A stretch of 37,721 nt of DNA from Deltaproteobacteria bacterium (GCA_016218825.1 JACRCV010000120.1:1-37721); one strand, 5' to 3'. Positions 6,168-30,367 are shown, numbered from the stretch's first letter. Notes: generated from the sequence alone by a model not told the origin. Numbers and translations: made by a program.

Positions 6168-6206
6168 AGATCCGACCGACGGCAGCGCCCAAGGAGTGAC
6201 GCGGGC

Positions 6207-6911: not shown

Positions 6912-7423
6912 TGCGCCTCTGGTGTCCGGCGCCGCTCTTGCTGGTGGCCTGCGCGGGTATCGAAGGCATGCCGTTTGCGGTGTTGAGCGCGGCCCCCGAT
7001 ATGCTCTGCGAAGGCGCGCCACCCACCGAGGTGACGCTCAGCGCCCGGGGCTCGATCGACGGCGACGGCGACGACGCTGAGCTGTCCTTTCAATGGAGCA
7101 CCACGCCCGCGCCGCTCGCGGTGATCCGGGGCTCGCTGACGGCGATCGAGTGGATCGGGAGCTTCCCGACCGCGTCACCGGTGAGCATCGATCTGACGGT
7201 CACCGACGACCACGGCGCCCAGGCGTCGCGCCGCCACGTGTTGCCACTGACGCGCACCGCCGCGGTGAGCTGCGACGCCGGCTGTCTGGACCACGAGATC
7301 TGCGCCGTCGTCGACGGCCAATCACTGTGCGTCGAGGCCGCGACCTGCACCGGAGATGACGAGTGCGGCTGCCTGCGCTGTCGTCAGGCCGCGGATGCCA
7401 CGTGGCATTGCGCCACGGGCTAA
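6911..7423 (+). CDS. Predicted lipoprotein with PKD-like and Cys-rich segments
   Basis: The product is 170 residues. It starts MRLWCPAPLLLVACAG, a short signal peptide with lipobox LVAC, so it is predicted to be lipid-anchored at the membrane. Residues about 30-115 read like a PKD/Ig-like domain (sarGSIDGDGDDAELSFQW, then VSIDLTVTDDHGAQAS). The last 45 residues have about ten cysteines (CDAGCLDHEIC, CTGDDECGCLRC), suggesting disulfide bonding outside the cytoplasm. The ATG at 6911 overlaps the stop of the transporter gene, so it is probably the last gene of the hyp operon. A function is not recognisable. Its stop overlaps the convergent gene at 7420 by 4 bp. Confidence 0.75.
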   Translation: MRLWCPAPLLLVACAGIEGMPFAVLSAAPDMLCEGAPPTEVTLSARGSIDGDGDDAELSFQWSTTPAPLAVIRGSLTAIEWIGSFPTASPVSIDLTVTDDHGAQASRRHVLPLTRTAAVSCDAGCLDHEICAVVDGQSLCVEAATCTGDDECGCLRCRQAADATWHCATG

Positions 7424-8721: not shown

Positions 8722-8762
8722 GGCACGTTTCCGTCTCCTACCCACGAACCGCTCCGCGCCGC

Positions 8763-8889
8763 CTAGACCGTCTTCGCCTTCATCTGATTCCCGCGCCGCC
8801 GATGCGGCGTCGCTCCCCACCCCCACCCCCTGAATCCCCCGCCCCCGAGTGGGGCGGGGCCGGATCACGTCCACCTGAAGACGGTCTAG
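8763..8889. repeat. 127-bp segment bounded by 13-bp perfect inverted repeats
   Basis: The left end CTAGACCGTCTTC (8763-8775) and the right end GAAGACGGTCTAG (8877-8889) are exact reverse complements. The interior is GC-rich and includes copy C of the dispersed repeat. No reading frame inside looks coding, so this resembles a miniature inverted-repeat element or a large folded leader. No flanking target-site duplication was evident. Confidence 0.7.
8786..8861 (-). repeat. Dispersed GC-rich repeat, copy C (upstream of the DTW fusion gene)
   Basis: Read on the minus strand it shows GCCCCACTCGGGGGCGGGG, then GGGGTGGGGGTGGGGAGCG, a hairpin GCCGC-ATC-GGCGGC, and GCGGGAATCA. These modules occur in the same order as in copies A and B but with different bases in the hairpin. 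It points towards the gene starting at 8721. Confidence 0.7.
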
Positions 8890-8983
8890 CCTACTCCGTT
8901 CGGCGCGGGCGAGAACCTCGGGACTGTCGCCACGCCGGCCGCGCCCTTGACCTCTAACGACAGCGGTGTTTGGTTGGCCCGGG

Positions 8984-8989
8984 AAAGGA
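8984..8989 (+). promoter_or_regulatory. Ribosome binding site of gdhA
   Basis: The sequence AAAGGAG lies just ahead of ATG 8996 and decides that start over the in-frame ATG at 8966. Confidence 0.7.
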
Positions 8990-8995
8990 GCACCC

Positions 8996-10333
8996 ATGTC
9001 CAGCGTCGTCGAGAACTTCATGAACTACGTGGTCGCGAAGAATCCCAACGAGCCTGAGTTCCACCAGGCGGTCCGCGAGGTGGTGGAGTCGGTGATGCCG
9101 GTGGTGGACGCCACCCCGGCCTACAAGCGCGCCAAGATCCTGGAGCGCATCGTCGAGCCGGAGCGCACCATCATGTTCCGGGTGCCGTGGACCGACGATC
9201 GCGGCGAGATCCGGGTCAACAAAGGCTATCGGGTCGAGTTCAACAGCGCGCTCGGCCCCTATAAAGGTGGGCTGCGTTTTCACGCCAACGTCACGCTGAG
9301 CACGATGAAGTTCCTCGGCTTCGAGCAGACCTTCAAGAACTCGCTGACCACGTTGCCGATGGGCGGCGGCAAGGGCGGCTCCGACCTCGATCCGCGCGGC
9401 ATGAGCGACAACGAGATGATGCGCTTCTGCCAGGCGTTCATGGCCGAGCTGTTCCGCCACATCGGCGCCGACACCGACGTGCCGGCCGGCGACATCGGCG
9501 TCGGCGGGCGCGAGATCGGCTACCTGTTCGGGATGTACAAGAAGCTCCGGAACGAGTTCACCGGGGTGTTGACCGGCAAGGGCCTCAACTGGGGCGGCTC
9601 GCTGGTGCGACCCGAGGCCACCGGCTTCGGCGCCACCTACTTCATCGAGGAGATGCTGAAGACCCGGGGCGAGGCGCTGCAGAACAAGAAGGTCGCGGTC
9701 TCCGGGTTCGGCAACGTCGCCTGGGGCGTGGCGCTGAAGATGACCGATCTCGGCGCCAAGGTGGTCACGATCTCCGGCCCGGACGGCTTCGTCCACGATC
9801 CCGACGGCATCAAGGGCGAGAAGATCGACTACATGCTGCAGATGCGCGCCAGCGGCCGCGATCGGGTGCAGGACTACGCCGACAAGTTCAAGGTCGAGTT
9901 CCACGCCGGCAAGAGGCCGTGGATCGTCCCCTGCGACGTCGCGGTGCCGGCGGCGATCCAGAACGAGCTCGACGAGAACGACGCCCGGGCGCTGTTGAAG
10001 AACGGCGTCAAGTGCGTCTGCGAGGCGGCGAACATGCCGGTGGTGCCGAAGGCGGTGCACCTGTTCCAGGAGGCCAAGATCCTGTTCGCGCCGGGCAAAG
10101 CGGCGAACGCCGGCGGCGTCGGGACCTCGGGCCTGGAGATGTCGCAGAACGCCCAACACCTGTGCTGGGCGCGCGAAGAGGTCGACATGCGCCTGAAGCA
10201 GATCATGGAGCGCATCCACCACACCTGCCTGACCTACGGCCAGGAGGGCACCTACACCAACTACGTCAAGGGCGCGAACGTCGGCGGCTTCATCAAGGTC
10301 GCCGACGCCATGCTCGACCAGGGTCTGGTCTAG
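8996..10333 (+). CDS. gdhA: NADP-type glutamate dehydrogenase
   Basis: It catalyses the reversible reductive amination of 2-oxoglutarate to glutamate in the cytoplasm. The 445-residue product matches the hexameric bacterial family from end to end: FNSALGPYKGGLRFH, the glycine-rich LPMGGGKGGSDLDP with the catalytic lysine region, DTDVPAGDIGVGGREIGY, TGKGLNWGGSLVRPEATG, the Rossmann motif VSGFGNVAWG, and the C-terminal TYGQEGTYTNYVKGANVGGF. The start ATG at 8996 has a good ribosome site, AAAGGAG, 8 bp upstream; an earlier ATG at 8966 lacks this. NADP use is inferred from the family (assimilatory, about 450 residues) rather than from one residue. The next gene follows after 62 bp. Confidence 0.96.
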   Translation: MSSVVENFMNYVVAKNPNEPEFHQAVREVVESVMPVVDATPAYKRAKILERIVEPERTIMFRVPWTDDRGEIRVNKGYRVEFNSALGPYKGGLRFHANVTLSTMKFLGFEQTFKNSLTTLPMGGGKGGSDLDPRGMSDNEMMRFCQAFMAELFRHIGADTDVPAGDIGVGGREIGYLFGMYKKLRNEFTGVLTGKGLNWGGSLVRPEATGFGATYFIEEMLKTRGEALQNKKVAVSGFGNVAWGVALKMTDLGAKVVTISGPDGFVHDPDGIKGEKIDYMLQMRASGRDRVQDYADKFKVEFHAGKRPWIVPCDVAVPAAIQNELDENDARALLKNGVKCVCEAANMPVVPKAVHLFQEAKILFAPGKAANAGGVGTSGLEMSQNAQHLCWAREEVDMRLKQIMERIHHTCLTYGQEGTYTNYVKGANVGGFIKVADAMLDQGLV

Positions 10334-10395
10334 GCAGCGCGTTCGCCGTCGTTCACTCGAGGGCCTCGCGCGCTCTCGGGCGCGGCCCTGTGCTC

Positions 10396-13300
10396 ATGCC
10401 CATCGAAGCGCCACAGACCTCCCGCGTCCCCTGGTACGTGCGGCTGCACGAGCTGATGCCGCACCGCGTCCGCGAGATCCTCTTGGTGTCGTCGAGCTAC
10501 GACGCCTTCATCCTCGAGGAGGACGGCCCGCTCACCGAGCGGATCTTCACCTCGTATTCGGAGATGAACCTCTCGTGGGCGCCGCGCATCACCCACGTGA
10601 CCAACCTGCCGGCGGCGCTGGCGCAGCTGAGCGAACGGCGCTTCGATCTGGTCATCGCGATGCCGCGCATCGAGGACGCCGACGTCAGCACCCTGGGCCG
10701 CGAGCTCAAGAAGCGCGATCCGTCCTTGCCGGTGGTGCTCTTGACCTTCAGCGAGGCCGACCTGCGGCAGCTGCACGCCAGCGTCGACGTCCACGCCATC
10801 GACCGGGTCTTCGTCTGGACCGGCGACGCCCGCATCCTCATCGCCATCAACAAGCTGGTCGAGGACGAGCTCAACCTGAAGCACGACTGCGAGGCGATCG
10901 GGGTGCCGGCGATCATCTTCGTCGAAGACTCGCCGCACCACGCCTCGACCTTTCTCACCGAGCTCTACACCGAGTTGATGGTGCAGTCGCAGTCGCTCGC
11001 CGCCGAGGGGGTCAACAACCTCCACAAGCTGCTGCGGATGCGCACCCGCCCCAAGGTGTTGCACGCCCGCAGCTTCGAGGAGGCCCACGGCCTCTTCGAT
11101 CGCCTGCAGGAGCACGTGTTCGCGCTGATCACCGACATGCGCTTCCCGAGGGCCGGCGTCCTCGATCCCGAGGCCGGCTTTCGCCTGATCGAGAGCTTCC
11201 GCAACATCCGCGCCGACCTGCCGGTGCTGGTGCAATCGGCGGAGACCGACATCGTCACCCGGGCCCGCGAGCGCGACATCCCCTGCGTCGACAAGAACTC
11301 GCCGCAGTTCATCCGCGAGCTCCGGGCCTTCGTCACCGAGAGCCTGGGCTTCGGTGACTTCGTGTTCCGCCTCCCCGACCGCACCGAGGTGGCGCGGGCC
11401 CGCGACATGTACGAGATGGAGCACGTGCTGAAATACGTGCCGGCGGAGTCGCTCCTCTATCACGCGTCGCGCAACCACTTCTCGATCTGGTTCACGGCGC
11501 GCGGCCTGTTCGAGGTCAGCAGCTGGCTGCGCTCGAAGAAGGTCAACGACTTCGCCGGCATCGAGGCGCTGCGCGCCTACCTGATCGAGACGTTGGCCCG
11601 CGCCCGCACCCTGGAGCAGGAAGGCATCATCACCGACTTCGGCAGCCGGGCGAAGAACCCCAACAGCATCTTCGTCCGCCTCGGCGAGGGCTCGATCGGC
11701 GGCAAGGCCCGCGGCATCGCGTTCGCGAACTACATCCTCGCCCGCGCCGGCATCGCCGATCAGTTCCCCGGGCTCTCGGTGCGCATCCCGCGCACCGTCG
11801 TCATCGGCGTCGAGGAGTTCGAGCGCTTCGTGGAGCGCAACCGCCTGCTCGACGCGGTCCGGGCCGGCGTCAACGATCGACAGCTGTTGCAGCGCTTCCT
11901 CGACGGTTACCTCTCCGAGGAGTTCCTGCGCGACCTGCGCAGCATCTGGGAGGAGCTCAAAGGGCCGCTCGCGGTGCGCTCCTCGAGCCTGCTCGAGGAC
12001 CTGCACTTCCAGCCGTTCTCCGGGGTCTACGCCACCTACATGCTGCCGAACAACCACCCGGAGCCCGAGGTCCGGTTCACCGAGCTCTGCCAGGCGGTCA
12101 AGGCGGTCTACGCCTCGACCTACTCGGAGAACGCCCGCACCTACATCGCCGGCACCCCGTTTCGCCCCGAAGAGGAGAAGATGGGGATCGTGATCCAGGA
12201 GATGGTCGGCGCGCACCGCGGCGACCACTTCTATCCCCACTTCTCCGGGGTGGCGCTGTCGTACAACTACTACCCGATCCACGGTCAGGGGGCCGACGAC
12301 GGCACCGCGCTGATCGCCGTCGGCCTCGGACACACCATCGTCCTCGGCGGCTCGGCGCTGCGCTTCTGCCCGGCGTCGCCCGGCGTGTTGCCGCAGTTCA
12401 AGACCCCGGGCGAGTTCGTGCGCAGCTCGCAGAAGACCTTCTACGGCCTCGACCTCACCCGGCCGCGCGTCGACTTCCCGGCCGGCCAGGAGGCGTCGCT
12501 GAAGCTCCTCGACATCGAGGCGGCGTTCGACGACGGCATCTTCGCCTCGGTGGGCAGCACCTACTCGGCGGCGGACAACACCCTCCGCGAAGGCTCGCAC
12601 GTCACCGGCCAACGGGTCGTCACCTTCAACAACATCCTCAAATGGGACGCGATCCCGCTGGCGGCGGCGCTCTCGCACCTGTTGCGGCGCTTCCGCCAGG
12701 GGATGGGCTGCGCGGTCGAGATCGAGTTCGCGGTGGACATGGGCGACTGGGGCAGAACGGCGCAAAGCGATCGACCGGCGCGCGAGCCGGTGTTGAACGT
12801 GCTGCAGATCCGCCCGCTCGCCACCCACTTCCTGAGCCAGGAGATGGAGCCCCAGGACTTTCCGGCCGCCGAGGTGATTTGCCACACCGACCGGGCCTTG
12901 GGCCACGGTCACATCGAGAACATCTTCGACCTGGTGTACGTACGCCGCGACGCCCTCGACAAGCACGCCACGCCCGAAATCGCGCGACAGCTCGGGGAGA
13001 TCAACCGCACCCTGCAGCAAGAAGCGCGGCCGTTCATGCTGGTCGGACCGGGGCGCTGGGGTTCGTCGGACCCGCGCCTGGGAATACCCGTGGAGTGGCG
13101 GCAGATCGCCGGCGCCCGGGTGATCGCCGAGACCCGGATCCGCGACCGCGAGGTCGAGCCCTCGCAGGGCTCGCACTTCTTCCAGAACATCACCTCGCTC
13201 GGCGTCGGCTACCTGACGCTCTCGGGCCTTGGTCGCCAGGACGACGCCGCGAGCTTCATCGACATGGATTGGCTCGACACCATCCCGGCGCACCGCGAGA

Positions 13301-18587: not shown

Positions 18588-19868
18588 CTATTCGAGCGCG
18601 ATCGACGTCAGGATCTTGCGCAACGGGCGCTCGTTCTGCCGGATGCGCAGCGACCAACCCGGCTCGCGGAAGCGCCAGTAGCCGTCCATCAGCTTGATGA
18701 CGTCGAGCAGGGTGTCGTCGTTGAAGAACTTCGCCATCCCCGGGTACTTCGAGATCTGTTGCTCGCGATCCTCGGGGCGGAACAAGCCCTCGGAGAGCTC
18801 GCGGAAGATCACCAGCGCCTGAATCAGGTTCAGCGCCGTGCGCTCGTCGAGGCTGCACAACGCGTCGAAGAAGTCCGGGAAGTAGGTGGCGAGGACGATG
18901 GTGAGGAAGCGCTCGTAGTCGTCGGTCGTGCCGCGATAATACTGCGCCTGGAAGAACAGCTTCTTGAGGATCGCCTTCAGGCGCCTGGGGTTGTAAGGCA
19001 GGATCTTGAAGGTGTCCTTGAGCTTGTCGGCGTGCTCCTTGTTGGGGAAGAACTCGGTGAGCGCGTCGTCGATCAGATCGTGGTAGCGGTGTTCGTCGTA
19101 GCGGAACGAGAACTCGTAGGGAAAGACCTTCTCGAGGTAGAGGTTCCCGAAGTTGCGCCGGTAGCGGTAGTAGTTGTCGATGGTCTCTTTGACCACCTCT
19201 TTGTCCATCGCCACCATGAAGACGATGCTGTCCACCGACAGGAAGTTCTTGATGGTCTCGAGCAAGAAGATGACGTTGTGCGGCGTGCAGCGGTCGAGAT
19301 CGTCGACGAACACCACCATGCGCCGGCCACCGAGGGCGCTCTTCAGCGCCTCGCCGAAGCGCTGCCTAAACGAGTCGATCTGATCGATCCAGCCGCAGTA
19401 GGCCGCCATCGCCGCGTCGCTCTCGGCGGCCGCCGCCATCAACGTCGCCGCCGACGACGACATCTTCATGAAGGCGCGCAGGTACATCGTGAACGGTGAG
19501 CCGTCGTCGTCCTTGATGCCGAGCACCGCCTGGATCTTGCGCAACAACCCGATCGCCATGTTGACCGGCTTGTTGTCGTACTGCCAGGAGTCGAACCACG
19601 CGGTGACGAAGCGCTCGCCGAGGCGCGCCGACACCATCGACAAGATGCTGGTCTTGCCCGCCCCCCAGGGAGCGAAGATCGCGATGTTGCCGGAGAACAC
19701 GTCCTCGCGGTCGAGCAGGGTGACGATGTCGGTCATCGTCTGCACGACGGCGCTGCCACCCAAACGGTCTTGCGCGGCGGCGACCGGCTTGTCCTGCAGC
19801 ACGTACGCCAACAGCTCGGCGCGGCTGTACTTGCGCTCACTGGCCACTTGATGCACGGCCCTCTCCAT
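18588..19868 (-). CDS. KAP-family P-loop NTPase
   Basis: The product is 426 residues. Walker A is APWGAGKTS at about 66-74 and Walker B is MVVFVDDLDRC at 184-194, the KAP signature with a double Asp and following LDRC. The region GNIAIFAPWGAGK and the conserved WFDSWQYDN (91-99) also fit KAP. KAP NTPases often carry membrane segments inserted in the P-loop domain; here residues 136-160 form only a weakly hydrophobic Ala/Met-rich stretch, so membrane attachment is doubtful. Known members are linked to membrane protein complexes, and some to phage defence. It is the last gene of a minus-strand run with V4R-like genes, 61 bp after the preceding stop. ATG 19868 is chosen because the longer frame is low-complexity. 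Confidence 0.88.
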   Translation of the reverse strand: MERAVHQVASERKYSRAELLAYVLQDKPVAAAQDRLGGSAVVQTMTDIVTLLDREDVFSGNIAIFAPWGAGKTSILSMVSARLGERFVTAWFDSWQYDNKPVNMAIGLLRKIQAVLGIKDDDGSPFTMYLRAFMKMSSSAATLMAAAAESDAAMAAYCGWIDQIDSFRQRFGEALKSALGGRRMVVFVDDLDRCTPHNVIFLLETIKNFLSVDSIVFMVAMDKEVVKETIDNYYRYRRNFGNLYLEKVFPYEFSFRYDEHRYHDLIDDALTEFFPNKEHADKLKDTFKILPYNPRRLKAILKKLFFQAQYYRGTTDDYERFLTIVLATYFPDFFDALCSLDERTALNLIQALVIFRELSEGLFRPEDREQQISKYPGMAKFFNDDTLLDVIKLMDGYWRFREPGWSLRIRQNERPLRKILTSIALE

Positions 19869-19929
19869 CGGGCGCGGCCCGGTCGACGCACGTCGCGCCG
19901 ACCGGAGCCACGGTCCGGACTGCTCTAGT

Positions 19930-20529
19930 TTACTTGGCGCGGGTGACGACGAACTCACCGTAGTCGTCGCCGCACTCGATCCCCTTGGTCTGGGTGCACA
20001 CGAAGGTGCCCAAGCCATCGGGATACGGCTTCTTGCCGTAGGCGAGGTCGAAGAACGCCGCGCACACGCCCTCGAGCATGTACGCCGACATCACCCGCGA
20101 CTGGCCCTTCAGCACGATGTCGGACTCGTAGTAGTCGTAGGCCCGCACCACCATCTTCTCGGCGGCGACGAGCTCGACGATCTCACACTGCGCCCAACCC
20201 CACGCCGAGAAGATCGCGAACGCGCCGTGCAGGATGTCATCCGGCTGCTTCGTGATCATCGGCTGCACCACGGCTTTCCACTCTTCACTGGTGATGATGC
20301 CGTAGCCGGTGTGGTAGCCGCACTCGTTGCCGGCCCAGCGCAGCAGGTACTGCGCCGGCTCCAGCATGTCGGGGCCGACGCTGTTGGTGAGCATGTCGGC
20401 GAAGTTGTTCCACAGCGACGCCGGCAGCTGGTTCACGAGCACCCCGAAGCCCGGGATCAGACCGTCCTGGTTGCCCTGGACCTTGATCTTCGACAACGAC
20501 TCGATAACGACCTTTCTATCAATGGTCAT
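19930..20529 (-). CDS. V4R-like domain protein, longer paralogue (199 aa)
   Basis: The product is 199 residues and soluble. Residues about 95-197 resemble the V4R (4-vinyl reductase) domain: AFSAWGWAQCEIVEL-type strand (ILHGAFAIFSAWGWAQCE), then MLEGVCAAFFDLAYG, and the C-terminal FVCTQTKGIECGDDYGEF with cysteines 178 and 186. V4R domains share a fold with heme-NO-binding proteins and bind small hydrophobic or tetrapyrrole ligands; BchJ is the classical member. The reaction here is unknown. The gene has a strong ribosome site (AAGGAG) and follows the 178-residue V4R-like gene by 13 bp. It uses fewer Arg codons and more Lys and aromatic residues than its neighbours, suggesting high expression. 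The V4R call is by pattern, not by search. Confidence 0.65.
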   Translation of the reverse strand: MTIDRKVVIESLSKIKVQGNQDGLIPGFGVLVNQLPASLWNNFADMLTNSVGPDMLEPAQYLLRWAGNECGYHTGYGIITSEEWKAVVQPMITKQPDDILHGAFAIFSAWGWAQCEIVELVAAEKMVVRAYDYYESDIVLKGQSRVMSAYMLEGVCAAFFDLAYGKKPYPDGLGTFVCTQTKGIECGDDYGEFVVTRAK

Positions 20530-20542
20530 GTGTAGCTCCTTC

Positions 20543-21079
20543 CTAGCTGCGCACGATGGTGAACAAGGAGGCCTCGGCGCCCGAGACGATGCTTTGGGTC
20601 TCGGTGACGCTGAAGCTGCCGGCCGACTCGTCGAAGATCGCGGCCATCGCCGCCATCAGGTAGCCCTGGCCGATGAAGTTGATCGGGTCCTTGCGCTTGC
20701 CCCACTTCTTGACCCAGCCCTCGTCGGCGTGGCTGCGGGGCATGCGCACCATGGCCGACATCGCGCCGATGCGCTCGAACTGCAACAGCCCCATGCCGGA
20801 CATGCGCCAGTACTCTTCGATGAGGCCGACGCGCTCGGCGAGATCGTGGATCTGGTGCTGTGCGAAGTAGCTCTTGAACACCGGCAAGAACGCCGCCTCA
20901 CTCGCCTTGCACATGATCGCCTTGCCGTTCATGTCCTTGGCGTCGTCCGCGAGGCGCAGGTAGTTGCTGGTGTAGTGGTGGCAGTGCAGCACCATCGGCA
21001 CGTCGCCCATGGTGTGGCGGCACTTGCGGCGGTCAAACTTGTGATCGATCACCCACTCGACTGTCTTTTGGGTTGCCAT
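20543..21079 (-). CDS. V4R-like domain protein, shorter paralogue (178 aa)
   Basis: The product is 178 residues and soluble. It has the N-terminal motif MVLHCHHYTSNYLRLADD (His-Cys-His-His-Tyr at 32-36), which could bind a metal or a cofactor. The C-terminal part, FIGQGYLMAAMAAIFDESAGSFSVTETQSIVSGAEASLFTIV, follows the pattern of the V4R C-terminus, where a conserved small-residue/Cys strand ends the domain. It appears to be a diverged partner of the 199-residue protein that follows 13 bp downstream; a heterodimer is plausible but inferred. The start ATG at 21079 has AAAGGA about 9 bp upstream. The gene lies 19 bp after the 63-residue gene. Confidence 0.6.
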   Translation of the reverse strand: MATQKTVEWVIDHKFDRRKCRHTMGDVPMVLHCHHYTSNYLRLADDAKDMNGKAIMCKASEAAFLPVFKSYFAQHQIHDLAERVGLIEEYWRMSGMGLLQFERIGAMSAMVRMPRSHADEGWVKKWGKRKDPINFIGQGYLMAAMAAIFDESAGSFSVTETQSIVSGAEASLFTIVRS

Positions 21080-21098
21080 CGTTGTTGTCCTTTCCTAC

Positions 21099-21290
21099 CT
21101 AGAGTTTCGGAACGTCGGCGCCGAGGATCTCTCTCGCTGCATCGAAGAACTTCTGCAGGTTCTCCGGCGAATCCGGGGCATCCTTGGCGAGATGCGACGG
21201 CATGGCCGTGCGCATCGCGAGGCGCATCTTGGCTTGCATGCCCCCCTTCTCGTCGACAAACTTGTAGTACTTCATCAGCTTCTCACCCAT
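21099..21290 (-). CDS. Small protein of unknown function (63 aa)
   Basis: The product is 63 residues with high Lys, Met and Ala content: MGEKLMKYYKFVDEKGG, then MRLAMRTAMPSHLAKDAPDSP, and NLQKFFDAAREILG. It is predicted to be mostly helical, with no signal peptide or cysteine. A strong ribosome site (AAGGAGA) sits about 6 bp before ATG 21290, and the start overlaps the preceding gene by 8 bp. This is good evidence that it is translated. I do not recognise it. Its position between a cysteine desulfurase cluster and V4R-like proteins suggests an accessory or bridging role. Confidence 0.7.
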   Translation of the reverse strand: MGEKLMKYYKFVDEKGGMQAKMRLAMRTAMPSHLAKDAPDSPENLQKFFDAAREILGADVPKL

Positions 21291-21582
21291 GATCTTCTCC
21301 TTGTTCAGTGAGATCTTGCAAATGAGCTAGGGCCGCATTCACGGCCGACCGAGCAAACGTAACGCGAAAGGTCGCGTTACCTACGACACCCTGAATCACA
21401 TAGAACCCCCATTTCTCGATGCGAAAGTACGGCCGCGGAAACTCGGGGTAGTACGACAGCTGCGCCTCGGTCGCGAGGCGTCGCATCGTCGCCTCGTCCA
21501 CCGGGGGGTCCACCCGAATCTCCTTGGCAAAGCTCCCGTCGAAGCAGTCCTCGAGGGCGCGGATCTCCAACACCCGAGTCAT
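21283..21582 (-). CDS. 99-residue protein of unknown function next to cysteine desulfurase
   Basis: The product is 99 residues. It contains RALEDCFDGSFAKEIRVDPPV and SYYPEFPRPYFRIEKWGFYVIQG, followed by TFRVTFARSAVNAALAHLQDL; it looks like a compact alpha/beta fold. A single cysteine (Cys13) lies in a conserved-looking acidic and aromatic context and could accept persulfide sulfur from the desulfurase, but that is speculation. The start at 21582 overlaps the desulfurase stop by 4 bp (ATGA) and its stop overlaps the 63-residue gene by 8 bp, so it is tightly coupled to both. An open frame extends upstream within the desulfurase gene and is not real. I do not recognise a family. Confidence 0.7.
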   Translation of the reverse strand: MTRVLEIRALEDCFDGSFAKEIRVDPPVDEATMRRLATEAQLSYYPEFPRPYFRIEKWGFYVIQGVVGNATFRVTFARSAVNAALAHLQDLTEQGEDHG

Positions 21583-22712
21583 CGGCGCCCAAGCTTGGCG
21601 AGCGCCGCCGCCAGCGCCTCGACATCGTCGTTGGTGTTGAAGGCCGCGAAGCTCGCCCGCACCGTGCCGCGCGGCAGGGTCTTGAAGTGCCGGTGCGCGA
21701 GCGGCGCGCAGTGCAGGCCGCTGCGGGTCTCGATGTCGAACGACTCGCTGAGGACCAGACCGACCTCGTCGGGGTCGACGCCCGCGACCGTGAACGACAC
21801 GACCCCGGCCCGCCCGTCGCCGTTCACGATAGGCTGCAGCGTGATCCCCGGCTGCGTCTGCAGTCGCTCGCGCAGCCGCGTCACCAGATCGTGGCGGTGC
21901 TGCCCCAGCGTCTCGACGCCGCGCTCGAGGACGAACTCGACCCCGGCGGCGAGCCCCGCCGCACCCGGCAGGTTGTGGGTCCCGGCCTCGTAATAGAGCG
22001 GCAGGGTTTCCGGCTGCAGCAGCTCCTCGCTCCTGACGCCGGTGCCGCCGACGAAGGTCGGCGCGACCAGGGCGTCCGGAACCACGAGCACGCCGGTGCC
22101 GGTCGGCCCATAGAGTCCCTTGTGACCCGCCGCGACCAGGAAGACGCGGCCGGGCAGCGTCCGGTAGGAGAGCGGCACCGCCCCGGCGGTCTGCGAGGCG
22201 TCCAACAACAGCGGGATCTGGGCGCGCGCCGCGACCGCCGCGAGCTCGGCGACCGGCTGGATCGAGCCGCTGACGTTCGACGCGTGGGTCACGGCGACGA
22301 GGCGAGTCTGCGGCCGAATGGCGTCGGCGAGCGCCGCGGCGGTGATCTCGCCGGCCGCGGTCGGCGTGAGGTGAGTGACCTCGACCTTGGCGCGGCGCGC
22401 GGCATGCGCCAGCGGCCGCAGCACCGAGTTGTGCTCCAGCTGCGTCGCCAGCACGTGGCACGGCGCCGCCGCCGTCAGCACGCCGTGGATCACGAGGTTC
22501 AGGCCGTAGGTCGCCGACGGCACGAGAATCACCTGCGCCGGGTCGTCGACGCCGAAGAGCGTCGCCAGGCGCTCGCGACAGACGCTCACCAGATCCTTGC
22601 CGCCCCGACTCCGTCCGGGCTCCATCGGCCTCGCCGCCAGCGACGCGGCGACCGCACGCGTGACCGCCTCGGGGTTCGGAAAGCTGGTCGCGGCGTTGTT
22701 CAAGAAGCGCAT
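21579..22712 (-). CDS. Cysteine desulfurase (class V aminotransferase, SufS/CsdA-like)
   Basis: It is a PLP enzyme predicted to release sulfur from cysteine as a protein persulfide for Fe-S clusters or sulfur-containing cofactors. The 377-residue product matches the cysteine desulfurase family: NNAATSFPNPEAV at the N-terminus, His95 in LEHNSVLRP, Asp171 in LLLDASQTAG, the PLP lysine Lys198 in AAGHKGLYG, GTGVRSEE, and catalytic Cys335 in TRSGLHCAPLAH. It lacks an IscS-type Cys loop and is nearer the group-II type. The ATG at 22712 lies 17 bp after the receptor stop; the end overlaps the 99-residue gene by 4 bp. No scaffold or SufE gene is adjacent, so its product is likely a dedicated sulfur donor for this operon. 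Confidence 0.92.
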   Translation of the reverse strand: MRFLNNAATSFPNPEAVTRAVAASLAARPMEPGRSRGGKDLVSVCRERLATLFGVDDPAQVILVPSATYGLNLVIHGVLTAAAPCHVLATQLEHNSVLRPLAHAARRAKVEVTHLTPTAAGEITAAALADAIRPQTRLVAVTHASNVSGSIQPVAELAAVAARAQIPLLLDASQTAGAVPLSYRTLPGRVFLVAAGHKGLYGPTGTGVLVVPDALVAPTFVGGTGVRSEELLQPETLPLYYEAGTHNLPGAAGLAAGVEFVLERGVETLGQHRHDLVTRLRERLQTQPGITLQPIVNGDGRAGVVSFTVAGVDPDEVGLVLSESFDIETRSGLHCAPLAHRHFKTLPRGTVRASFAAFNTNDDVEALAAALAKLGRR

Positions 22713-22729
22713 CGATCACCCGCGGCCGC

Positions 22730-24406
22730 TCAAGTCGAGCGCGCCGATCGGCCCTTGGTCGCCGGCGCTTCGCCCGGACGCCGCTGATACAACGAGAAGG
22801 TCTCGCGGACGTTGCTCAGCCACTCGAGGTGCGAGGCAAGGACCTGGTTGAGATCGCGCGACGAGCTGCTGGTGTCTTCGTAGAGCTCGCGCAGCGTGTG
22901 CATCAGGGTGTTCATCTCCTCGAGCTCCGTCGACAGCTGCTTGCTGCCTTGGCCGTGCTCGCCGGCCGCGGTGAGCATCTGCGTTGCCAGGCTGCGCATC
23001 TTCTTGGCGTGCTCGGTCAACAGCTCGCCGCCCTTCGACTGCTCGCTGGTCTCGCGCGAGATGTCGCCGACGCCCTGAGCGATGCCGGCGATGGCGGCCG
23101 CCAGCGAGCGGGTGCCCGACGCCTGTTGCAGCGCGGCGGCGGCGATCTGCTCGACCATGCTGGTGGAGGTCTGGGCGCTCTCGCGGATCTGGCGGAGGGC
23201 CTCGTCCGCCTCGCGCGACAGCCCGATGCCGTGCTCGACCTGCTCGGCCACGTGCCGGCTCGCGGCCACCGCCCGATCGACCTCGGCCTGGATGTCTTTG
23301 ACCAGGGTCGCGATCTCGCGCGTCGACCGGCCGGTGCTGTCGGCCAGGCCCTTGATCTCGTCGGCCACCACCGCGAAGCCCCGCCCGTGGCTGCCGGCCT
23401 GGGCGGCGATGATCGCGGCGTTCAACGCCAGGAGGTTGGTCTCGCGGGCGACGTTCTCGATGACGTCGAGCACCGCGCCGATGCGGCCGACCTTCGACTC
23501 CAGCGCCTTGACGACGGCGGTCGACGAGCTGTTGGCGGCGGCGATCTCCATGATGCCGGCGATGGTCTTGCGGACCGCGTCGGAGCCGGTCTCGGCGCGC
23601 TCCGCCACCTGCTTGGAGAGGCTGGCGGTGCTGCGGGTGTTGCCCTCGACCTGGCGGATGGCGCTGTCCATCTGGTTCATCGCCGACGCGGTCTCTTCGG
23701 CGAGCTGCGCGATCGAGTCGACGTTGGCCGCGACCTGCTTGATCGACGGCGTCATCTCGTCGACGCACAGCGCGGTGAAGTTCGAGCTCTCGGCGACGCC
23801 GTCGGCGTTCTCGGACAGCGCGTGCGCGGTCACCGCCATCTCCTGAACGCTCGCCGCGGCGACGCCCATCCGCTCGCCGGCGCCTTTGAGCTGGTCTTCG
23901 AAGCGACTGAGGCGCACGGCGCTGGCGCGCTCCAGATCGCGCACCACCGTCATCAGCGCCTGCTCGCGCCCCGCCATCTCGACCGAGAGCTCGTCAACGG
24001 CCCCGAGCGCCCGCTTCACCTGACCCCGCAGCTCCTCGGCCTCGGCGCGCGCCACTTGAGCCTGGCGCTGACTCTCGGCCCCCGCCAGGCGCAGCGGCTC
24101 GAGGTCGCCCTGCTGCCGGCGCTGCAGCAGGTGGAGCAACAGCGCGGCGCCGCCCCCGAGGACGGCCAGCACCAGGCTCGAGACCACCAGGACCCGATGG
24201 CGCTCCGCGGTCACCGCCGCATCGACGGCGGCTTGCACCTCGGCGGGGCCGTCGGTCCGTTCCGGCTCGAAACCACCGCTCTCGACCGCGATCCCGTTCA
24301 ACACCAAGAGCGCGGCCGTCACCGCCGCAGCGAATCCTGGTAACGTCAGGGCGCGCGGCCCGAGGAGCTCTCGCACCATGCCACTCGCGATCAATGCGTC
24401 ACGCAT
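22730..24406 (-). CDS. Methyl-accepting chemotaxis-type receptor
   Basis: The product is 558 residues. Two membrane segments (about 20-41 and 71-94) enclose only about 30 residues, so it lacks a usual ligand-binding domain and may sense through the membrane or from the cytoplasm. A long coiled coil leads to the signalling hairpin near 325-365: VARETNLLALNAAI, then AGSHGRGFAVVADEI, and GLADSTGRSTREI. The core reads IIAAQAGSHG where most receptors have IEAARAGE, a variant. ATG 24406 has GGGGAGGG about 7 bp upstream; GTG 24448 does not. There is no C-terminal CheR-tethering pentapeptide. It lies 17 bp before the cysteine desulfurase gene, so it is probably co-transcribed with it. No che genes are in the window. 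Confidence 0.92.
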   Translation of the reverse strand: MRDALIASGMVRELLGPRALTLPGFAAAVTAALLVLNGIAVESGGFEPERTDGPAEVQAAVDAAVTAERHRVLVVSSLVLAVLGGGAALLLHLLQRRQQGDLEPLRLAGAESQRQAQVARAEAEELRGQVKRALGAVDELSVEMAGREQALMTVVRDLERASAVRLSRFEDQLKGAGERMGVAAASVQEMAVTAHALSENADGVAESSNFTALCVDEMTPSIKQVAANVDSIAQLAEETASAMNQMDSAIRQVEGNTRSTASLSKQVAERAETGSDAVRKTIAGIMEIAAANSSSTAVVKALESKVGRIGAVLDVIENVARETNLLALNAAIIAAQAGSHGRGFAVVADEIKGLADSTGRSTREIATLVKDIQAEVDRAVAASRHVAEQVEHGIGLSREADEALRQIRESAQTSTSMVEQIAAAALQQASGTRSLAAAIAGIAQGVGDISRETSEQSKGGELLTEHAKKMRSLATQMLTAAGEHGQGSKQLSTELEEMNTLMHTLRELYEDTSSSSRDLNQVLASHLEWLSNVRETFSLYQRRPGEAPATKGRSARST

Positions 24407-24688: not shown

Positions 24689-26866
24689 CTAGAAGCAGTC
24701 GCTGGTCGACGCCGAGCGACCGATGCGCACCACGATCTGGCTCGAGGCGTCGGCGACGATGAGCGACCATTTGCTGGAGTCGGCGTCGGTCATGTCGAGG
24801 GCGATGCCGCGCACCGACGCGAAGCCGGTGACCATCGCGGCGCTGCCCTCGGGCAGCACCGGCGTCGGGTCGGCGGTATTGGCGTCGATGTCGGTGTACG
24901 CGAAGATCTCGCTCTGCAACGCGCCGGCGTTCGGCCGATCATTGGCGACCAACAAACAGTCGCCACCATTGGCGTCCTTCGGCACGTAGACGATGCCGTA
25001 GGGAGTGTCGAGTTGATCGTTGTTGCTGCCGAACTGCGTGGTGTCGGCGAGCCGCCAGGCATAGCTGCGCGCCGGGTCGAAGGCGGTCACCCGCTGCGAG
25101 CCGCTCACGTAGACGAACAACCGGGTCACGAGCGCGCCGTCGTCGGTCTTGGCGCGCCGCAACACCCCGACCACGTCCCGCGGGTTGTTGAGGCCCCAAT
25201 TGTTGCTGAAGTCCCAGGTCTGCAGGTTGGTGCTCGTCGAGGCCGGAGCCACCTGCACCTGGTAGACGCGCCCGTTGCTGCCGGCCACGTACATCGTGCC
25301 GTCGGCGGCGCCGTGAGCGACCTCGACCGCCGACCAGTTGCCGTTGTCGCTCTGCAGGGCCACCGGCTGGCTGCCGCGCGGCGCGGGCGCTAGGCCCTTG
25401 GTGTTGGCGACCAGGTACACGCACGGGACGCCGTTGCCGCGGCCCGGCGCGAAGTTGGCGCAGTCCGCAGACGAGAACGCGCTCATCCCGGTGATCGCGG
25501 TCTTGGTGTTGAGGAAGGTCGCGATCGCGGCGACCTGGGCGGTCTCGGTGGTGCCGATCGACTGCAGGCAGTCGCTGGGTTGCGCCGAGATCGGTCCGTT
25601 GCAGTCGGCGCCGCCACAGGCGGTGGCGTCGCGCCGCACTCGAACCACATAGCGACTCGTGCCGGCGAGCTGAATCGAGAGGCAGTCGTCGTTGGCGAGC
25701 GGGTTGCTGGCGGCCAGGAAGTAGCCGTACGCCGGGGTCGCGCCGTCGAGCATCCCGAGGCCGCGGGCGCCGTTGCTGATCGTCTGGTAGCTCGCGTGGG
25801 TGATCTCGCCGGCTAGGGTCTTGTCGATCCGATCGTTGTCGAGCGCCGCGTAGAGGTTGCCGTCGGCGTCGAAGTCGAGCGCCCGCGGCGTGCGCGGGAA
25901 GTAGTCGATGGCGACGAAGGGCGTCTGGCCGACGGGGTCGAAGCCGAACACCGCCGGCAGCGCGGCGTCGCTGTTCGCGGCGTACACCGAGCCGTCCGGG
26001 GCCACGGCGACGTCCTGCACCGACGACAGCATCGGCCCGGCGCCGACCACGTCGATCGTCCGGTCACCGGCGTCCAGGTAGTAGGTGACGTCCAAGACCG
26101 CGGCGCGCGAGTTCGCGATGTTGCCGGCGGTGTCGGTGGCTTGCGCCTCGACGCTCAGCTGCCCGGCCCAGGCGTTGATCGTGAAGCTGAACGACACGTC
26201 GTAGTCGGTGCCCGCGGTGTAGGCGCCGGCTGGGACCAGGGTGTAGTCGGAATCCGACACCCCGGTGCCGAAGGCCTTGTACTCCACTTCGGCGAGACCC
26301 CGTTCGTCCTGGGCGCGGACCGTCACCACGACCAGGGAGCCGCGGCGGAAGCGCGCCGCCGGCGTCGTGCGGCTGGCGCAATCGGAGAGATCGGCCCGAT
26401 CGGTGAGCATGCCGGAGGGCTGGCAGACGTAGTAGCCGTTGATCCGATGCACGCCGACGACCGGCAGATCGATGTCGGGACCGGCGAGCGGGTCGTAGAC
26501 GATCTCGACCACGGTCGGCTCGCTGGCGTTGCCGGCGGCGTCCTTGGCGACGAGGGCGACCTGGGTCGTCGCCGTGGTCGCGCCCCCGGGGATCGTGGTG
26601 TCGAGGCTGATCTCGGCGCGGAAGATCGCGGTGTAGGGATCGGCGGTGGTGGTGATCGAGTTCTGGCCCCCGGTGATGGTCACCGTGGCGCCGTACTCCG
26701 CCGAACCGGAGAGCAAGAGCTTCGTGGCGCGAGTCGGCGACTCGAAGGGATCGACGACCGGCTTCGGCGGCGGCGTGCCGTCCTTCTCGGAGCACGCCAG
26801 GCCGGCCATCATGACCCCGAGACCACCGACGATCACCCGCACCATCCGCTGCGACGTCCTGAACAT
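24689..26866 (-). CDS. Large lipoprotein with beta-propeller-like region
   Basis: The product is 725 residues. The signal peptide ends in lipobox MAGLACSE (MFRTSQRMVRVIVGGLGVMMAGLAC), so it is predicted to be anchored in a membrane. Residues about 60-280 look like two Ig/Big-like beta domains (SAEYGATVTITGG; VALVAKDAAGNASEP; AQATDTAGNIANS). The rest has repeats of the type DVAVAPDGSVYAANSD, ALDFDADGNLYAALDND and VEVAHGAADGTMYVAGSNGRVYQV. These are typical of NHL/SMP-30-like propellers. Cysteines occur in pairs, consistent with disulfides. The start at 26866 has AGGAGAG upstream, better than the longer frame to 26935. Function is unknown; it probably faces the periplasm or surface and binds a ligand or partner. 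Confidence 0.8.
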   Translation of the reverse strand: MFRTSQRMVRVIVGGLGVMMAGLACSEKDGTPPPKPVVDPFESPTRATKLLLSGSAEYGATVTITGGQNSITTTADPYTAIFRAEISLDTTIPGGATTATTQVALVAKDAAGNASEPTVVEIVYDPLAGPDIDLPVVGVHRINGYYVCQPSGMLTDRADLSDCASRTTPAARFRRGSLVVVTVRAQDERGLAEVEYKAFGTGVSDSDYTLVPAGAYTAGTDYDVSFSFTINAWAGQLSVEAQATDTAGNIANSRAAVLDVTYYLDAGDRTIDVVGAGPMLSSVQDVAVAPDGSVYAANSDAALPAVFGFDPVGQTPFVAIDYFPRTPRALDFDADGNLYAALDNDRIDKTLAGEITHASYQTISNGARGLGMLDGATPAYGYFLAASNPLANDDCLSIQLAGTSRYVVRVRRDATACGGADCNGPISAQPSDCLQSIGTTETAQVAAIATFLNTKTAITGMSAFSSADCANFAPGRGNGVPCVYLVANTKGLAPAPRGSQPVALQSDNGNWSAVEVAHGAADGTMYVAGSNGRVYQVQVAPASTSTNLQTWDFSNNWGLNNPRDVVGVLRRAKTDDGALVTRLFVYVSGSQRVTAFDPARSYAWRLADTTQFGSNNDQLDTPYGIVYVPKDANGGDCLLVANDRPNAGALQSEIFAYTDIDANTADPTPVLPEGSAAMVTGFASVRGIALDMTDADSSKWSLIVADASSQIVVRIGRSASTSDCF

Positions 26867-27349
26867 CTGGAGCTCTCCTGGTTCGTACTGCACCCCGGTC
26901 CCGTCATCGTAGGTGTAGCCCGACTGCCAGGGCAAGTGTAGCCACCACGCCCGAGGAAGTCAGAGGGAACATCCTCGGGAGATACCGGTCGGGTCAAGCC
27001 GCGAGCGAAAAAAGATCCGCGACAGCACCGTCGGGTGATGACTGCAGTCGTCAACCGGCGTTGACAGCGCGAGCCGGAATCGCCCGATATTTCCTAGAAG
27101 TAGGCGAGACGGCTGGCGGTCTGCTTCTTGCTCCCGTATTCTCCGCTATCCTTGATGGCGCGGTGGGACGACATCGCAGGTGACAACGTGAAGAAGGCGG
27201 TGACGTGGGTGTCAAGGCGATCGAGTTCCCGAGTTGGACCGGTGTTGCCCGCCCCACCCGGGGGCGGGCCGAGAGCGGCGCCGCAGGCGACGCTCCGGGG
27301 TGGGGGTGGGGAGGACGGGCGCGAAGCGCCCGCCGGGAATCAAAAGAAC
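26867..27349. other. Divergent intergenic region between two lipoprotein genes
   Basis: These 483 bp contain no gene that I can support; an open frame running into the 27350 gene passes through a repeat and encodes Arg/Gly-rich sequence. It holds a hairpin CCCGAGGA (26950-26957) with TCCTCGGG (26972-26979), a possible sigma-70 promoter at 27061-27091, and repeat copy B from 27218. Confidence 0.6.
27061..27091 (+). promoter_or_regulatory. Possible sigma-70-type promoter upstream of the 27350 gene
   Basis: A perfect -35 TTGACA (27061-27066) is followed after 19 bp by GATATT (27086-27091), four of six matches to TATAAT. The spacing is longer than ideal. If used, the transcript would carry about 250 bases of leader, including repeat copy B. 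Confidence 0.35.
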
Positions 27350-27368
27350 GTGAGCTCGATTGCCCTGG
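27218..27368 (+). repeat. Dispersed GC-rich repeat, copy B (overlaps the 27350 start)
   Basis: This is the longest copy. Its 5' part (27218-27280) matches copy D: CGAGTTGGACCGGTG, then GCCCGCCCCACC with its hairpin partner, then GGGCCGAGAGCG. Its 3' part matches copy A, including GGGCGC-GAA-GCGCCC, GGGAATCA and TCGATTGCCCTGG. The last 19 bases lie inside the coding region of the 27350 gene. Confidence 0.85.
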
Positions 27369-30367
27369 CGTGGGTGTGCTTGGTCGTTGTGCTCTTGGCC
27401 GCCTCGTGTCTCGGGCGCCCGGCCGAGGTGTGCGCGAACGGTGTGGCGGGCTGCGACGCCGTGACCGACCCGTGCGCGGCGACCGGCGGGATCTGCGCCG
27501 ACGCCCTCAAGATCAACGAGCTGATGCCGAAGAACGACGGCGCCTACATCGACGAGGCCTACGAGGCGAACGACTGGATCGAGATCATCAACACCGGCAA
27601 CGCCCCCAAAGGGCTGTTGGGCTACACCATCAGCGACCGCCCCGACCGCTACACCTTCCTGCCCGCGAAGACCCTGATGCCCGGCGAGGTGCTGCTGCTG
27701 TGGGCCGACAACACCCCGGCGCAGGGCGAGAACCACCTGAGCTTCAAGCTCGACGCCGGCGGCGGCACCGTCTATCTCTGGGCTCCGGACGCGCGCTTGG
27801 TCGACCGCGTGACCTACGGCAGCACCGTCGTGAACGACAGCCTGGCGCGCTTGCCGGACGGCAGCGGCGCGCTCGCCGTCTGCCACTTCGCCACTCCCGG
27901 GCGGCCAAACGGCAACCGCTGCGGCCCGCCGCCACCCGCGGAGCTGCCGGCCGAGGTGACCTTCACCCCGTACACCTGGCCGGTCCCCTGGCCGGCCCCC
28001 GGCACGCCCCTGTCGCTCTCCGAGCTGGCGCTCCGACCGGCCGGCTTCGTCGAGGTCACGAACACCGGCTCCGCGACCGTCGACACCCACGACTACCTGG
28101 TGACGATCAGCGCCCACGCTCCCGGCCTCCCCTGGCCGACCGCGGCTGCCGGGGTGCCGCTGTTGTGGCCGCAAGCGACGCTGGCGCCCGGCGAGCGGGC
28201 GGTGCTCCCGGTCGACAGCGCCGCCACCAACGCCCTCGAGGCCGACGTGAGCTTCGAAGGGGTCGTGACCCTGTGGCGCGCGAGCGATACCGCCAAGATC
28301 GATCGCGTCGACTTCATGGCGTGGCCCGACGGCGCGGCGTTGGCGCGGGTCCCCGACGGCGGCGGTACCTTCCGCTTCTGCAACGCGCTGACCCCGGGAG
28401 CGGTGAACGACCCGTGCGTGCCGCTCGCCTCCCGTCCGATCGTCGACCGCGTCCGCCACCTCTACACTCCCGGCGACTTCGCGGCGCTGGCCAAGGGCGG
28501 CGTGGCGCTCGGCATGGAGTCGGTCGAGTTCGTGATCGACATGCAGGCCGGTGACGTCGTGCACCTGTTGTCGGCCGCCGCCTGGGATCTGCACTACACC
28601 TGGGTCCGCGAGACCATCGACCGCCAACCCCACCTCGACCGCTGCATCCCGACCGAGAACCAGCTGTTCTACACCGGCTGGGTGCAGTTCTCGCAGGCGC
28701 AGTACTTCACCGTCGAAGGGCGGCGCTACCTGCTCGGGACGCTCGTGCACCACGCCGGCAGCGACATCCGCAGCGTCGAGTTCGCGTTGGGGGATCGGAT
28801 CACCGGGCCGATGATGCTGCAGGCCTTCTTCGCCGCGACCGCGAGCACCGACGCCCCCACCGCCTGGGTGATGCGACCCCAGAGCGCCCAGCAGACCTCG
28901 GTGATGCTCGGCATCGACGGCCAGGCGCCGATCGTCGACGCCAACGCCCCGTTTCGCGGCGTGACCTTTCAGCCGCTCACCGAAGGGGTCGCCTACGGCA
29001 AGCTGATCTTCGTCCCTTCGGCCGACCTCGCGACGACGCCGCTCGGCGCCCAGGTGATCGTGGTGACCGATCAGGTGCCGAACGATCTGCCGTTCGTCGG
29101 GGGACTCGTGACCGAGGCGTTCCAGACACCGCTGGCGCACGTCAACGTCCTGAGCCAAAACCGCGGCACCCCCAACATGGCGCTCGTCGACGCGCGCCAC
29201 GACCCTCGCCTGCTGCCGCTCTTCGACGCGCTCGTCCGCCTCGAGGTCTCCCCCGGCGCCTTCGCCGTCCGTCTCGCCGACCCCATCGAGGCCGAGGCGT
29301 TCTGGAGCAGCCAGCACGGCGGCGGCGCGCTCGCGGTCCCCCGTCTCGACACGACCTTGCGTGGCGTCGTGCCGCTCGCGGGTCGCGGCCTCACCGACTT
29401 GCCGGCGATCGGCGCCAAGGCGGCACAGCTCGCCGAGCTCGGGCGCGTGCTGTCGAGCTTCGCCGGCTGCCCGGGGAGCGTGCCGGTGCCGGAAAGTGCG
29501 TTCGCGATCCCGGTGGTGCACTCGCTCGAGCACCTGCAGTCGAGCGGCGCCGCGGCGCTCTTGGCCGCGCTCGAACCAGACCCGGTCTTTCGCACCGACC
29601 CCACCCTGCGCGCCCGGCGTCTCGCCGAGGTCCAGGCGTTGATCACGAGCGCGCCCGTCGACGCTGTTCTCCTCGCCGCGGTCGAGGCCCACGTCGGGGA
29701 AACCTTCGCCGACACCAGGCTGCGGTTCCGCTCGAGCAGCAACACCGAGGACCTGCCGGGCTTCAACGGCGCCGGCCTCTACACCTCGGCGAGCGCGGCG
29801 CAGGGCGACCCCGAGCGGCCGATCGCCGACGCCATCCGCACCGTATGGGCGAGCCTGTACAACCCGCGCGCCTACGACGAGCGCACGTTCTACAACATCG
29901 ACGGCACCAAGGTGGCGATGGCGGTGCTGGTGCATCCGGCGTTCCTCGCCGAGCGCGCCAACGGCGTCGCGATCAGCCGTGACGTCACCGAGCCGATCCG
30001 CTCCGACCAGTACTACATCAACGCTCAGGTGGGCGAGGCGAGCGTCACCAATCCGGCGCCGGGGGTGACCACCGACCAGATGATCTACCGCCTCGCCGGC
30101 GCGCCGCGCGTGACCTACCTCGCGCACAGCAACCTCCCCTACGCCGCGCCGGTGCTGGCGGAGGCGGAGATCGACCGGATCGCCTGCACGCTGCGCGCCA
30201 TCCACGCCCACTTCCGGCCGCTCCTCGATCCGACCGCCGCCAACCGCTGGTTCGCGATGGACGTCGAGATCAAGCTCCGGGGGCCGGCGCGGCAATTGGT
30301 GATCAAACAGACGCGGCCCTACGGCTTCGGCAAGGCCCAGATCCCCGCCGACTGCCGCGAGTTCTGA
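27350..30367 (+). CDS. Lipoprotein with lamin-tail-like domains, phosphohistidine-like and PEP-synthase ATP-grasp domains
   Basis: The product is 1005 residues. GTG 27350 gives a signal peptide with lipobox LAASC (Cys20). Residues about 53-185 resemble a lamin-tail domain (LKINELMPKN, NDWIEIINTG, GYTISDRPDR, PGEVLLLWAD), and a second, weaker one lies at about 200-360. A middle region is unknown. Residues near 575-620 look like a swivelling phosphohistidine domain (FQTPLAHVNVLSQNRGTP; candidate His597). Residues about 685-1005 are a PPDK_N/PEP-synthase ATP-grasp domain (IGAKAAQLAELG; RFRSSSNTEDLPGFNGAGLY near 793). The order phosphohistidine then ATP-grasp is that of glucan water dikinases, not PEP synthase. 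An ATP-using domain on an exported protein is odd. The start codon lies inside repeat copy B. Confidence 0.8.
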   Translation: MSSIALAWVCLVVVLLAASCLGRPAEVCANGVAGCDAVTDPCAATGGICADALKINELMPKNDGAYIDEAYEANDWIEIINTGNAPKGLLGYTISDRPDRYTFLPAKTLMPGEVLLLWADNTPAQGENHLSFKLDAGGGTVYLWAPDARLVDRVTYGSTVVNDSLARLPDGSGALAVCHFATPGRPNGNRCGPPPPAELPAEVTFTPYTWPVPWPAPGTPLSLSELALRPAGFVEVTNTGSATVDTHDYLVTISAHAPGLPWPTAAAGVPLLWPQATLAPGERAVLPVDSAATNALEADVSFEGVVTLWRASDTAKIDRVDFMAWPDGAALARVPDGGGTFRFCNALTPGAVNDPCVPLASRPIVDRVRHLYTPGDFAALAKGGVALGMESVEFVIDMQAGDVVHLLSAAAWDLHYTWVRETIDRQPHLDRCIPTENQLFYTGWVQFSQAQYFTVEGRRYLLGTLVHHAGSDIRSVEFALGDRITGPMMLQAFFAATASTDAPTAWVMRPQSAQQTSVMLGIDGQAPIVDANAPFRGVTFQPLTEGVAYGKLIFVPSADLATTPLGAQVIVVTDQVPNDLPFVGGLVTEAFQTPLAHVNVLSQNRGTPNMALVDARHDPRLLPLFDALVRLEVSPGAFAVRLADPIEAEAFWSSQHGGGALAVPRLDTTLRGVVPLAGRGLTDLPAIGAKAAQLAELGRVLSSFAGCPGSVPVPESAFAIPVVHSLEHLQSSGAAALLAALEPDPVFRTDPTLRARRLAEVQALITSAPVDAVLLAAVEAHVGETFADTRLRFRSSSNTEDLPGFNGAGLYTSASAAQGDPERPIADAIRTVWASLYNPRAYDERTFYNIDGTKVAMAVLVHPAFLAERANGVAISRDVTEPIRSDQYYINAQVGEASVTNPAPGVTTDQMIYRLAGAPRVTYLAHSNLPYAAPVLAEAEIDRIACTLRAIHAHFRPLLDPTAANRWFAMDVEIKLRGPARQLVIKQTRPYGFGKAQIPADCREF

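Follow-up and report, generated by a model that had tools for sequence, protein, structure and literature searches.

V4R domains are widespread, and only a few of them have a known ligand or cofactor. Here we describe a minus-strand gene unit at positions 18588-24406 of a 37,721-nt stretch from a Deltaproteobacteria bacterium (GCA_016218825.1 JACRCV010000120.1:1-37721; this whole stretch is hereafter "the window"), in which a pair of V4R-fold proteins, V4Ra and V4Rb, is combined with a cysteine desulfurase (CSD) and two small proteins, p99 and p63, the set being flanked by genes for a methyl-accepting chemotaxis protein (MCP) and a KAP NTPase. The five-gene set looks like an apparently undescribed kind of intracellular sensor dependent on sulfur chemistry; our literature search recovered no paper joining V4R/4-vinyl reductase proteins with a cysteine desulfurase, or 4-vinyl reductase with a chemoreceptor. 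By tying a V4R pair to a desulfurase of its own, the module offers a concrete starting point for working out which signals some V4R proteins respond to. If our interpretation is true, it would represent a sensor that comes with a sulfur source of its own and, in the window, a receptor whose signal is provided by a soluble V4R protein. It would also add two new small protein families, p99 and p63, to be characterised.

Among the described systems, the phenol regulators PoxR, MopR and DmpR share with this locus the fold of the V4Rb-type domain and, as judged from the fold alone, the coupling of ligand sensing to a signalling output. Unlike in these regulators, where the V4R unit is a fused N-terminal domain, the window encodes two separate V4R subunits, and the outputs in the loci described below are MCP, kinase or roadblock proteins, accompanied by a dedicated desulfurase. 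MsvR, the redox-sensing V4R regulator of methanogens, is similar in that its V4R cysteines control its state (PMC3729527), but it binds DNA as a homodimer and has three V4R cysteines that are conserved, whereas in the present pair the conserved cysteines are Cys33 (V4Ra) and Cys70 (V4Rb), and a DNA-binding domain is absent. The heterodimers of the TRAPP Bet3 family parallel the pair in their V4R-type fold and in the pairing of paralogous subunits, and roadblock proteins are neighbours in some of our loci; here, however, the context is one of bacterial signalling, with no GTPase gene noticed and no evidence of vesicle function. A heterodimeric V4R pair beside roadblock proteins is also relevant to the ways in which bacteria combine TRAPP-like parts. 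On the sulfur side, the Dnd/Ssp and SufS-SufU systems likewise equip a cysteine desulfurase with dedicated partner proteins. The window CSD matches SspA/DndA only at the general family level, no other PADLOC Dnd/Ssp protein is found among the seven window genes, and p99, unlike the partners in these systems, is a protein with one invariant cysteine and no family match. Its CxD motif presumably recalls the CGD of IscU/SufU.

Conservation of the five-gene core

A genome scan with V4Ra yielded seven loci, which were compared in translation; the search was then widened by V4Rb-profile whole-genome searches over sampled phyla, followed by p99-profile searches. Many of the relatives come from metagenome-assembled genomes, and genes in the compared loci were called as open reading frames (ORFs) rather than taken from annotation. 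The core of CSD, p99, p63, V4Ra and V4Rb recurs in Aminicenantes, Peptococcaceae and other genomes, and also in a Holophagae genome, where p63 was not detected. It is found in two configurations: CSD-p99-p63-V4Ra-V4Rb in the window, L011 and L104, and (p63)-V4Ra-V4Rb-CSD-p99 in L009, L010, L066, L069, L070, L101 and L103. The p99 gene lies directly downstream of CSD in all 12 loci that bear it (in L102 the contig starts inside CSD), an intact V4Ra-V4Rb pair is present in 10 of these 12, the window included, and p63 in 8 of the 11 p99 loci uncut by a contig end. The exceptions without an intact pair are L102, at its contig end, and L068 of the Peptococcaceae phylum, which has a split CSD, only the C-terminal third of V4Rb and an intact p99 (L068:6674-8467), and appears to be a decaying or misassembled copy. 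In the phylum of genome G061, p99 occurs in exactly 2 of 345 genomes, the same two that have a close V4R pair and CSD.

The sequence-only reading of the window had named co-occurrence of the 99-aa, 63-aa and V4R genes in distant genomes as a sign of a system, and these genes do co-occur, together with the desulfurase, across distant phyla and in two gene orders. As a sign against it, the reading had named homologues of the small and V4R-like genes that in most genomes occur without the desulfurase and KAP genes; on this the outcome is split. The KAP gene is absent from all other core loci compared, and V4R pairs do exist without CSD (the histidine-kinase, fused and Geobacteraceae types), whereas p99 was never seen without CSD and all the p63 genes found lie in CSD loci. 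Going by this conservation, the five-gene core very probably constitutes a functional unit.

Within the window, all seven minus-strand ORFs are confirmed, the intergenic gaps from MCP to KAP are indeed 17, -4, -8, 19, 13 and 61 bp, and good ribosome sites stand ahead of p63, V4Ra and V4Rb. The single operon proposed for all seven genes is likely from MCP to V4Rb, while the membership of KAP is doubtful because its 61-bp gap is without a ribosome site. No sigma-70-like promoter was found inside the seven-gene unit, and the one terminator-like match on the minus strand falls inside V4Ra, the number of such matches being not above that in shuffled sequences. The GC content at third codon positions is 0.92-0.94 in the five large genes, 0.70 in p99 and 0.83 in p63; we take the latter two to be real genes because other phyla have conserved counterparts of both proteins. 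Pfam recognizes only MCPsignal, Aminotran_5 and KAP_NTPase domains among the seven proteins; p99, p63, V4Ra and V4Rb have no Pfam or PADLOC match, and in NCBIfam only one match at chance level.

The V4R pair, the desulfurase and the small proteins

V4Ra (178 aa; 20543-21079, minus strand, as for all the genes described here) and V4Rb (199 aa; 19930-20529) do not themselves match PF02830, but their relatives do: 11 of 20 aligned V4Ra relatives (best 7e-12) and 9 of 19 aligned V4Rb relatives (best 3e-9). A search of PDB sequences with V4Ra and V4Rb profiles gave chance matches only. The two genes adjoin in all intact loci or are fused to code for a single protein of ~400-430 aa, such natural fusions being seen in 13 loci, one of them in the window's own genome. 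The model of the fused homologue from L082 (pLDDT 87, pTM 0.88) displays two V4R domains that come nearest to the phenol sensors PoxR/MopR. Its N-terminal half matches the V4R protein MJ1460 (Z 13.8), and its C-terminal half the phenol-sensor domain of PoxR (Z 17.6 over 179 residues, with an rmsd of 2.5 A); further fold matches are to TRAPP Bet3 and TRAPPC3, and to H-NOX. As V4Ra and V4Rb of the window are homologous to the halves of this protein, both almost certainly adopt the V4R fold, and their earlier designation as V4R-like holds, if only through relatives. That the two act as a pair is likewise upheld by the gene pairing and natural fusions, from which we infer that they form a heterodimer. 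The fusion in the window's own genome marks a second V4R system on contig C113 (L029:8142-9410), in which the gene for the 422-aa V4Ra-V4Rb-type protein is preceded by a 191-aa gene without a Pfam match, while the small ORF after it codes for a conserved cysteine.

The CSD (377 aa; 21579-22712) belongs to the Aminotran_5 family (PF00266, E=7e-70), with the catalytic His94, Asp171, Lys198 and Cys335 intact, as they also are in the aligned V4R-linked desulfurases. It is TIGR01977-like, scoring 331 bits (E=7e-99), which is below the curated cut-off of 377 bits; the second-best NCBIfam family is the selenocysteine lyase SclA, again under its cut-off. The p99-linked CSDs form one clade (support 93/91), and the second TIGR01977-like desulfurase of the window genome (C93:12784-13911, L105), which is 43% identical and has no V4R or p99 neighbours, falls outside it. 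In L080, a V4R pair is found next to a SufS-type desulfurase from another clade than the p99-linked CSDs, which lends weak support to the view that V4R pairs and desulfurases are linked. This locus (L080:6244-9481), which further codes for 168-aa and 104-aa proteins without Pfam matches, is possibly an independent V4R-desulfurase system.

The p99 gene (99 aa; 21283-21582) codes for a small alpha/beta protein conserved in the 12 loci, in which Cys13 and Asp15 are invariant in the alignment of homologues (Cys13-Phe14-Asp15 codons, the CxD motif, at 21538-21546). In its model (pLDDT 82), Cys13-x-Asp15 lies in a lower-confidence loop between strands 3-10 and 18-25. The best Foldseek match has an E of 0.05, and the best VIA match, to TBP-like chains, has a Z of 7.7 that unrelated folds equal, and for this reason we read no function from the fold; we propose p99 to be a sulfur acceptor or carrier. 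Alignment of homologues of p63 (63 aa; 21099-21290) defines a small protein without cysteine in the window. Both are small proteins without a described family. Several candidate relatives were considered: the small ORFs located after fused V4R genes are suggestive of p99 in position and in bearing a cysteine, but the comparison (hhalign E 0.16) is not significant, and neither is the profile comparison of p99 with the 104-aa protein of L080, so that homology is claimed for neither; the comparison of p63 with a Geobacteraceae 63-aa ORF before FIST was not significant either.

Signalling context and a proposed sulfur relay

V4R pairs without CSD are encoded directly before PAS or other histidine kinases in L071-L073, L075-L078, L081 and L082, while proteins with response-regulator and DUF4388 (RR-DUF4388) or DUF4388 and roadblock domains are encoded ahead of the V4R pair in L009, L066, L069 and the Geobacteraceae loci. 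Because V4R pairs adjoin such histidine kinases, RR-DUF4388 and roadblock proteins, a sensory role is the most economical reading, and we regard the pair as most likely a cytoplasmic sensor input. The window MCP (558 aa; 22730-24406; PF00015, E=9e-38) has two transmembrane helices by hydropathy (23-41 and 72-90) separated by a 30-residue linker. In L070, an MCP gene comes directly after p99, and in both receptors the closely spaced helices leave no room for a periplasmic ligand domain. With a receptor gene recurring beside core genes, the sequence-only view of the receptor as an output is plausible, and on balance the MCP appears to be a true partner of the V4R module.

We propose, as the best explanation of the whole though one to which we give somewhat under an even chance, that the locus specifies an intracellular sensory module in which sulfur from CSD and p99 sets the state of the V4R pair; as a proposal, the earlier suggestion that this pair senses a cofactor or ligand dependent on sulfur remains the best fit. 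V4Ra and V4Rb would heterodimerise and present ligand pockets like those of PoxR/MopR and TRAPP-Bet3, the fold being that of the fused homologue. CSD, with its observed catalytic residues, would free sulfur from L-cysteine as a persulfide, and p99 would take it on the loop Cys13 and hand it on to the V4R pair, where the most likely targets would be the V4Ra HCHH motif (His32-Cys33-His34-His35, codons 20975-20986) and V4Rb Cys70 (Cys70-x-x-His73, codons 20311-20322). The delivered sulfur, either as a persulfide or as part of a metal-sulfur site, would set the sensor state, with p63 perhaps serving as a small accessory subunit. In the window genome this state would be read out by the MCP, which is without a periplasmic sensing domain, and elsewhere by the response-regulator/DUF4388/roadblock proteins or histidine kinases found with related V4R pairs; the signalling machinery would thereby be informed of the cell's cysteine/sulfide or redox status. 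An action of sulfur on V4R cysteines is plausible because MsvR uses such cysteines as a redox switch (PMC3729527). Taken piecewise, the supply of sulfur to the V4R pair by CSD-p99 is a candidate function that we hold with some reserve; that the two furnish the heterodimer with sulfane sulfur or a metal-sulfur site, so that in several phyla chemotaxis, two-component or roadblock signalling would follow the cysteine/sulfide or redox state of the cell, is a tentative suggestion.

The distribution of the cysteines provides part of the case. The Geobacteraceae type, which is without CSD and p99, joins the CSD-bearing loci in one clade of a V4Ra+V4Rb tree (support 100/100) and is nested there beside the CSD-bearing L010 and L069 (99/100). 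Cys33 of V4Ra is kept in 10 of 10 aligned CSD-bearing loci, and within the clade HSHH instead of HCHH (Cys33 to Ser) is seen only in the CSD-free Geobacteraceae type; Cys70 of V4Rb is present in nearly all relatives. PoxR-type V4R domains bind zinc by cysteine (PMC10933270); the C-terminal paired cysteines of this site are replaced in both window subunits and lost from both subunits throughout the clade, but kept in the histidine-kinase type, and the site is not universal in the V4R superfamily (PMC10933270). Several points weigh against our proposal. Cys33 is also kept in histidine-kinase-type and most fused-type V4Ra proteins, all of which are without CSD, and so has a role apart from sulfur delivery; moreover, its change to serine is a single evolutionary event. 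For these reasons the sulfur target on the V4R pair is a proposal and not a result. Further, none of the fold matches of p99 is confident and no known signature of sulfur carriers is seen in it, the link to the MCP comes from two genomes, the heterodimer is deduced from fusions and gene pairing, and the interaction, ligand and activity are all predicted.

A somewhat unlikely but substantial alternative is that CSD and p99 make or break down a small molecule sensed by the V4R pair, such as a thio-compound or a cysteine or selenocysteine breakdown product, with no sulfur modification of the V4R proteins. It would accord with the binding of small ligands by V4R domains (PMC10933270, PMC2253512) and the fold matches to PoxR and MopR, with SclA as the second-best, sub-threshold family of the CSD and with the presence of Cys33 in CSD-free pairs; however, no fold match of p99 is enzyme-like, a sulfur relay better accounts for a small dedicated partner that has a single invariant cysteine, and the absence of CSD coincides with the loss of Cys33. 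Alternatively, the pair could serve a sulfur pathway as a substrate-binding enzyme or a carrier rather than being a sensor, the receptor being incidental: a kinship of V4R, MetOD1 and ATC hydrolase domains has been noted (PMC5847659), ATC hydrolases cleave a C-S bond, and in the Peptococcaceae-type L011 and L104 the gene run consists of the five core genes only and includes none for signalling. Against this, in many loci related V4R pairs directly adjoin histidine kinases, RR-DUF4388 and roadblock proteins, and an MCP adjoins the core in two genomes, and we consider it unlikely. Improbable, too, is a dedicated Fe-S maturation system, in which CSD and p99 would serve an Fe-S sensor of the same organism and the V4R pair would only chaperone or regulate. 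In L103, a core operon of the Aminicenantes order, an Fe-only-hydrogenase-like multi-Fe-S protein is indeed encoded between a response-regulator gene and p63 (L103:3896-5326); this is seen in one locus only, and the window and other loci are without such a gene.

The sequence-only reading had further cast the KAP P-loop NTPase (426 aa; 18588-19868; PF07693, E=3.5e-24, 86 bits versus a cut-off of 20) as an energy-using partner of the V4R/desulfurase proteins, making all seven genes one system. The KAP gene is on the same strand, 61 bp downstream, and similar in base composition; nevertheless, we reject it as a partner in view of its absence from the other core loci, the length of that gap and the missing ribosome site. 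Its best PADLOC matches, PDC-S20 (1.5e-28) and QatA, are to unrelated systems. KAP is probably a neighbour only, and its involvement in the V4R/desulfurase system is very improbable.

Other neighbours and related V4R loci

The KAP protein possibly belongs to something unrelated, as its PDC-S20 and QatA matches hint. In the Geobacteraceae type (L012, L014 and L015, ~5600-11700), the V4R pair, without CSD or p99, is flanked by FIST and DUF4388-roadblock genes, detected with Pfam, and by a ParA-like ATPase recognized by eye. Another type is seen in L071-L074, where one gene family lies just upstream of the V4R pair (L071:8659-9201, L072:6138-6695, L073:5852-6391 and L074:4120-4674); as tested in L071, it is the PF02572 corrinoid adenosyltransferase. 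PAS histidine kinases are encoded downstream of these pairs and, in L071 and L073, acyl-CoA dehydrogenase-family genes further upstream, so that a corrinoid or acyl-CoA link is possible for this type. Lastly, upstream of the MCP gene in the window are divergent genes for large predicted exported proteins (24689-30367), including one on the plus strand in which lamin-tail domains and a PEP-synthase-like region can be discerned by eye.

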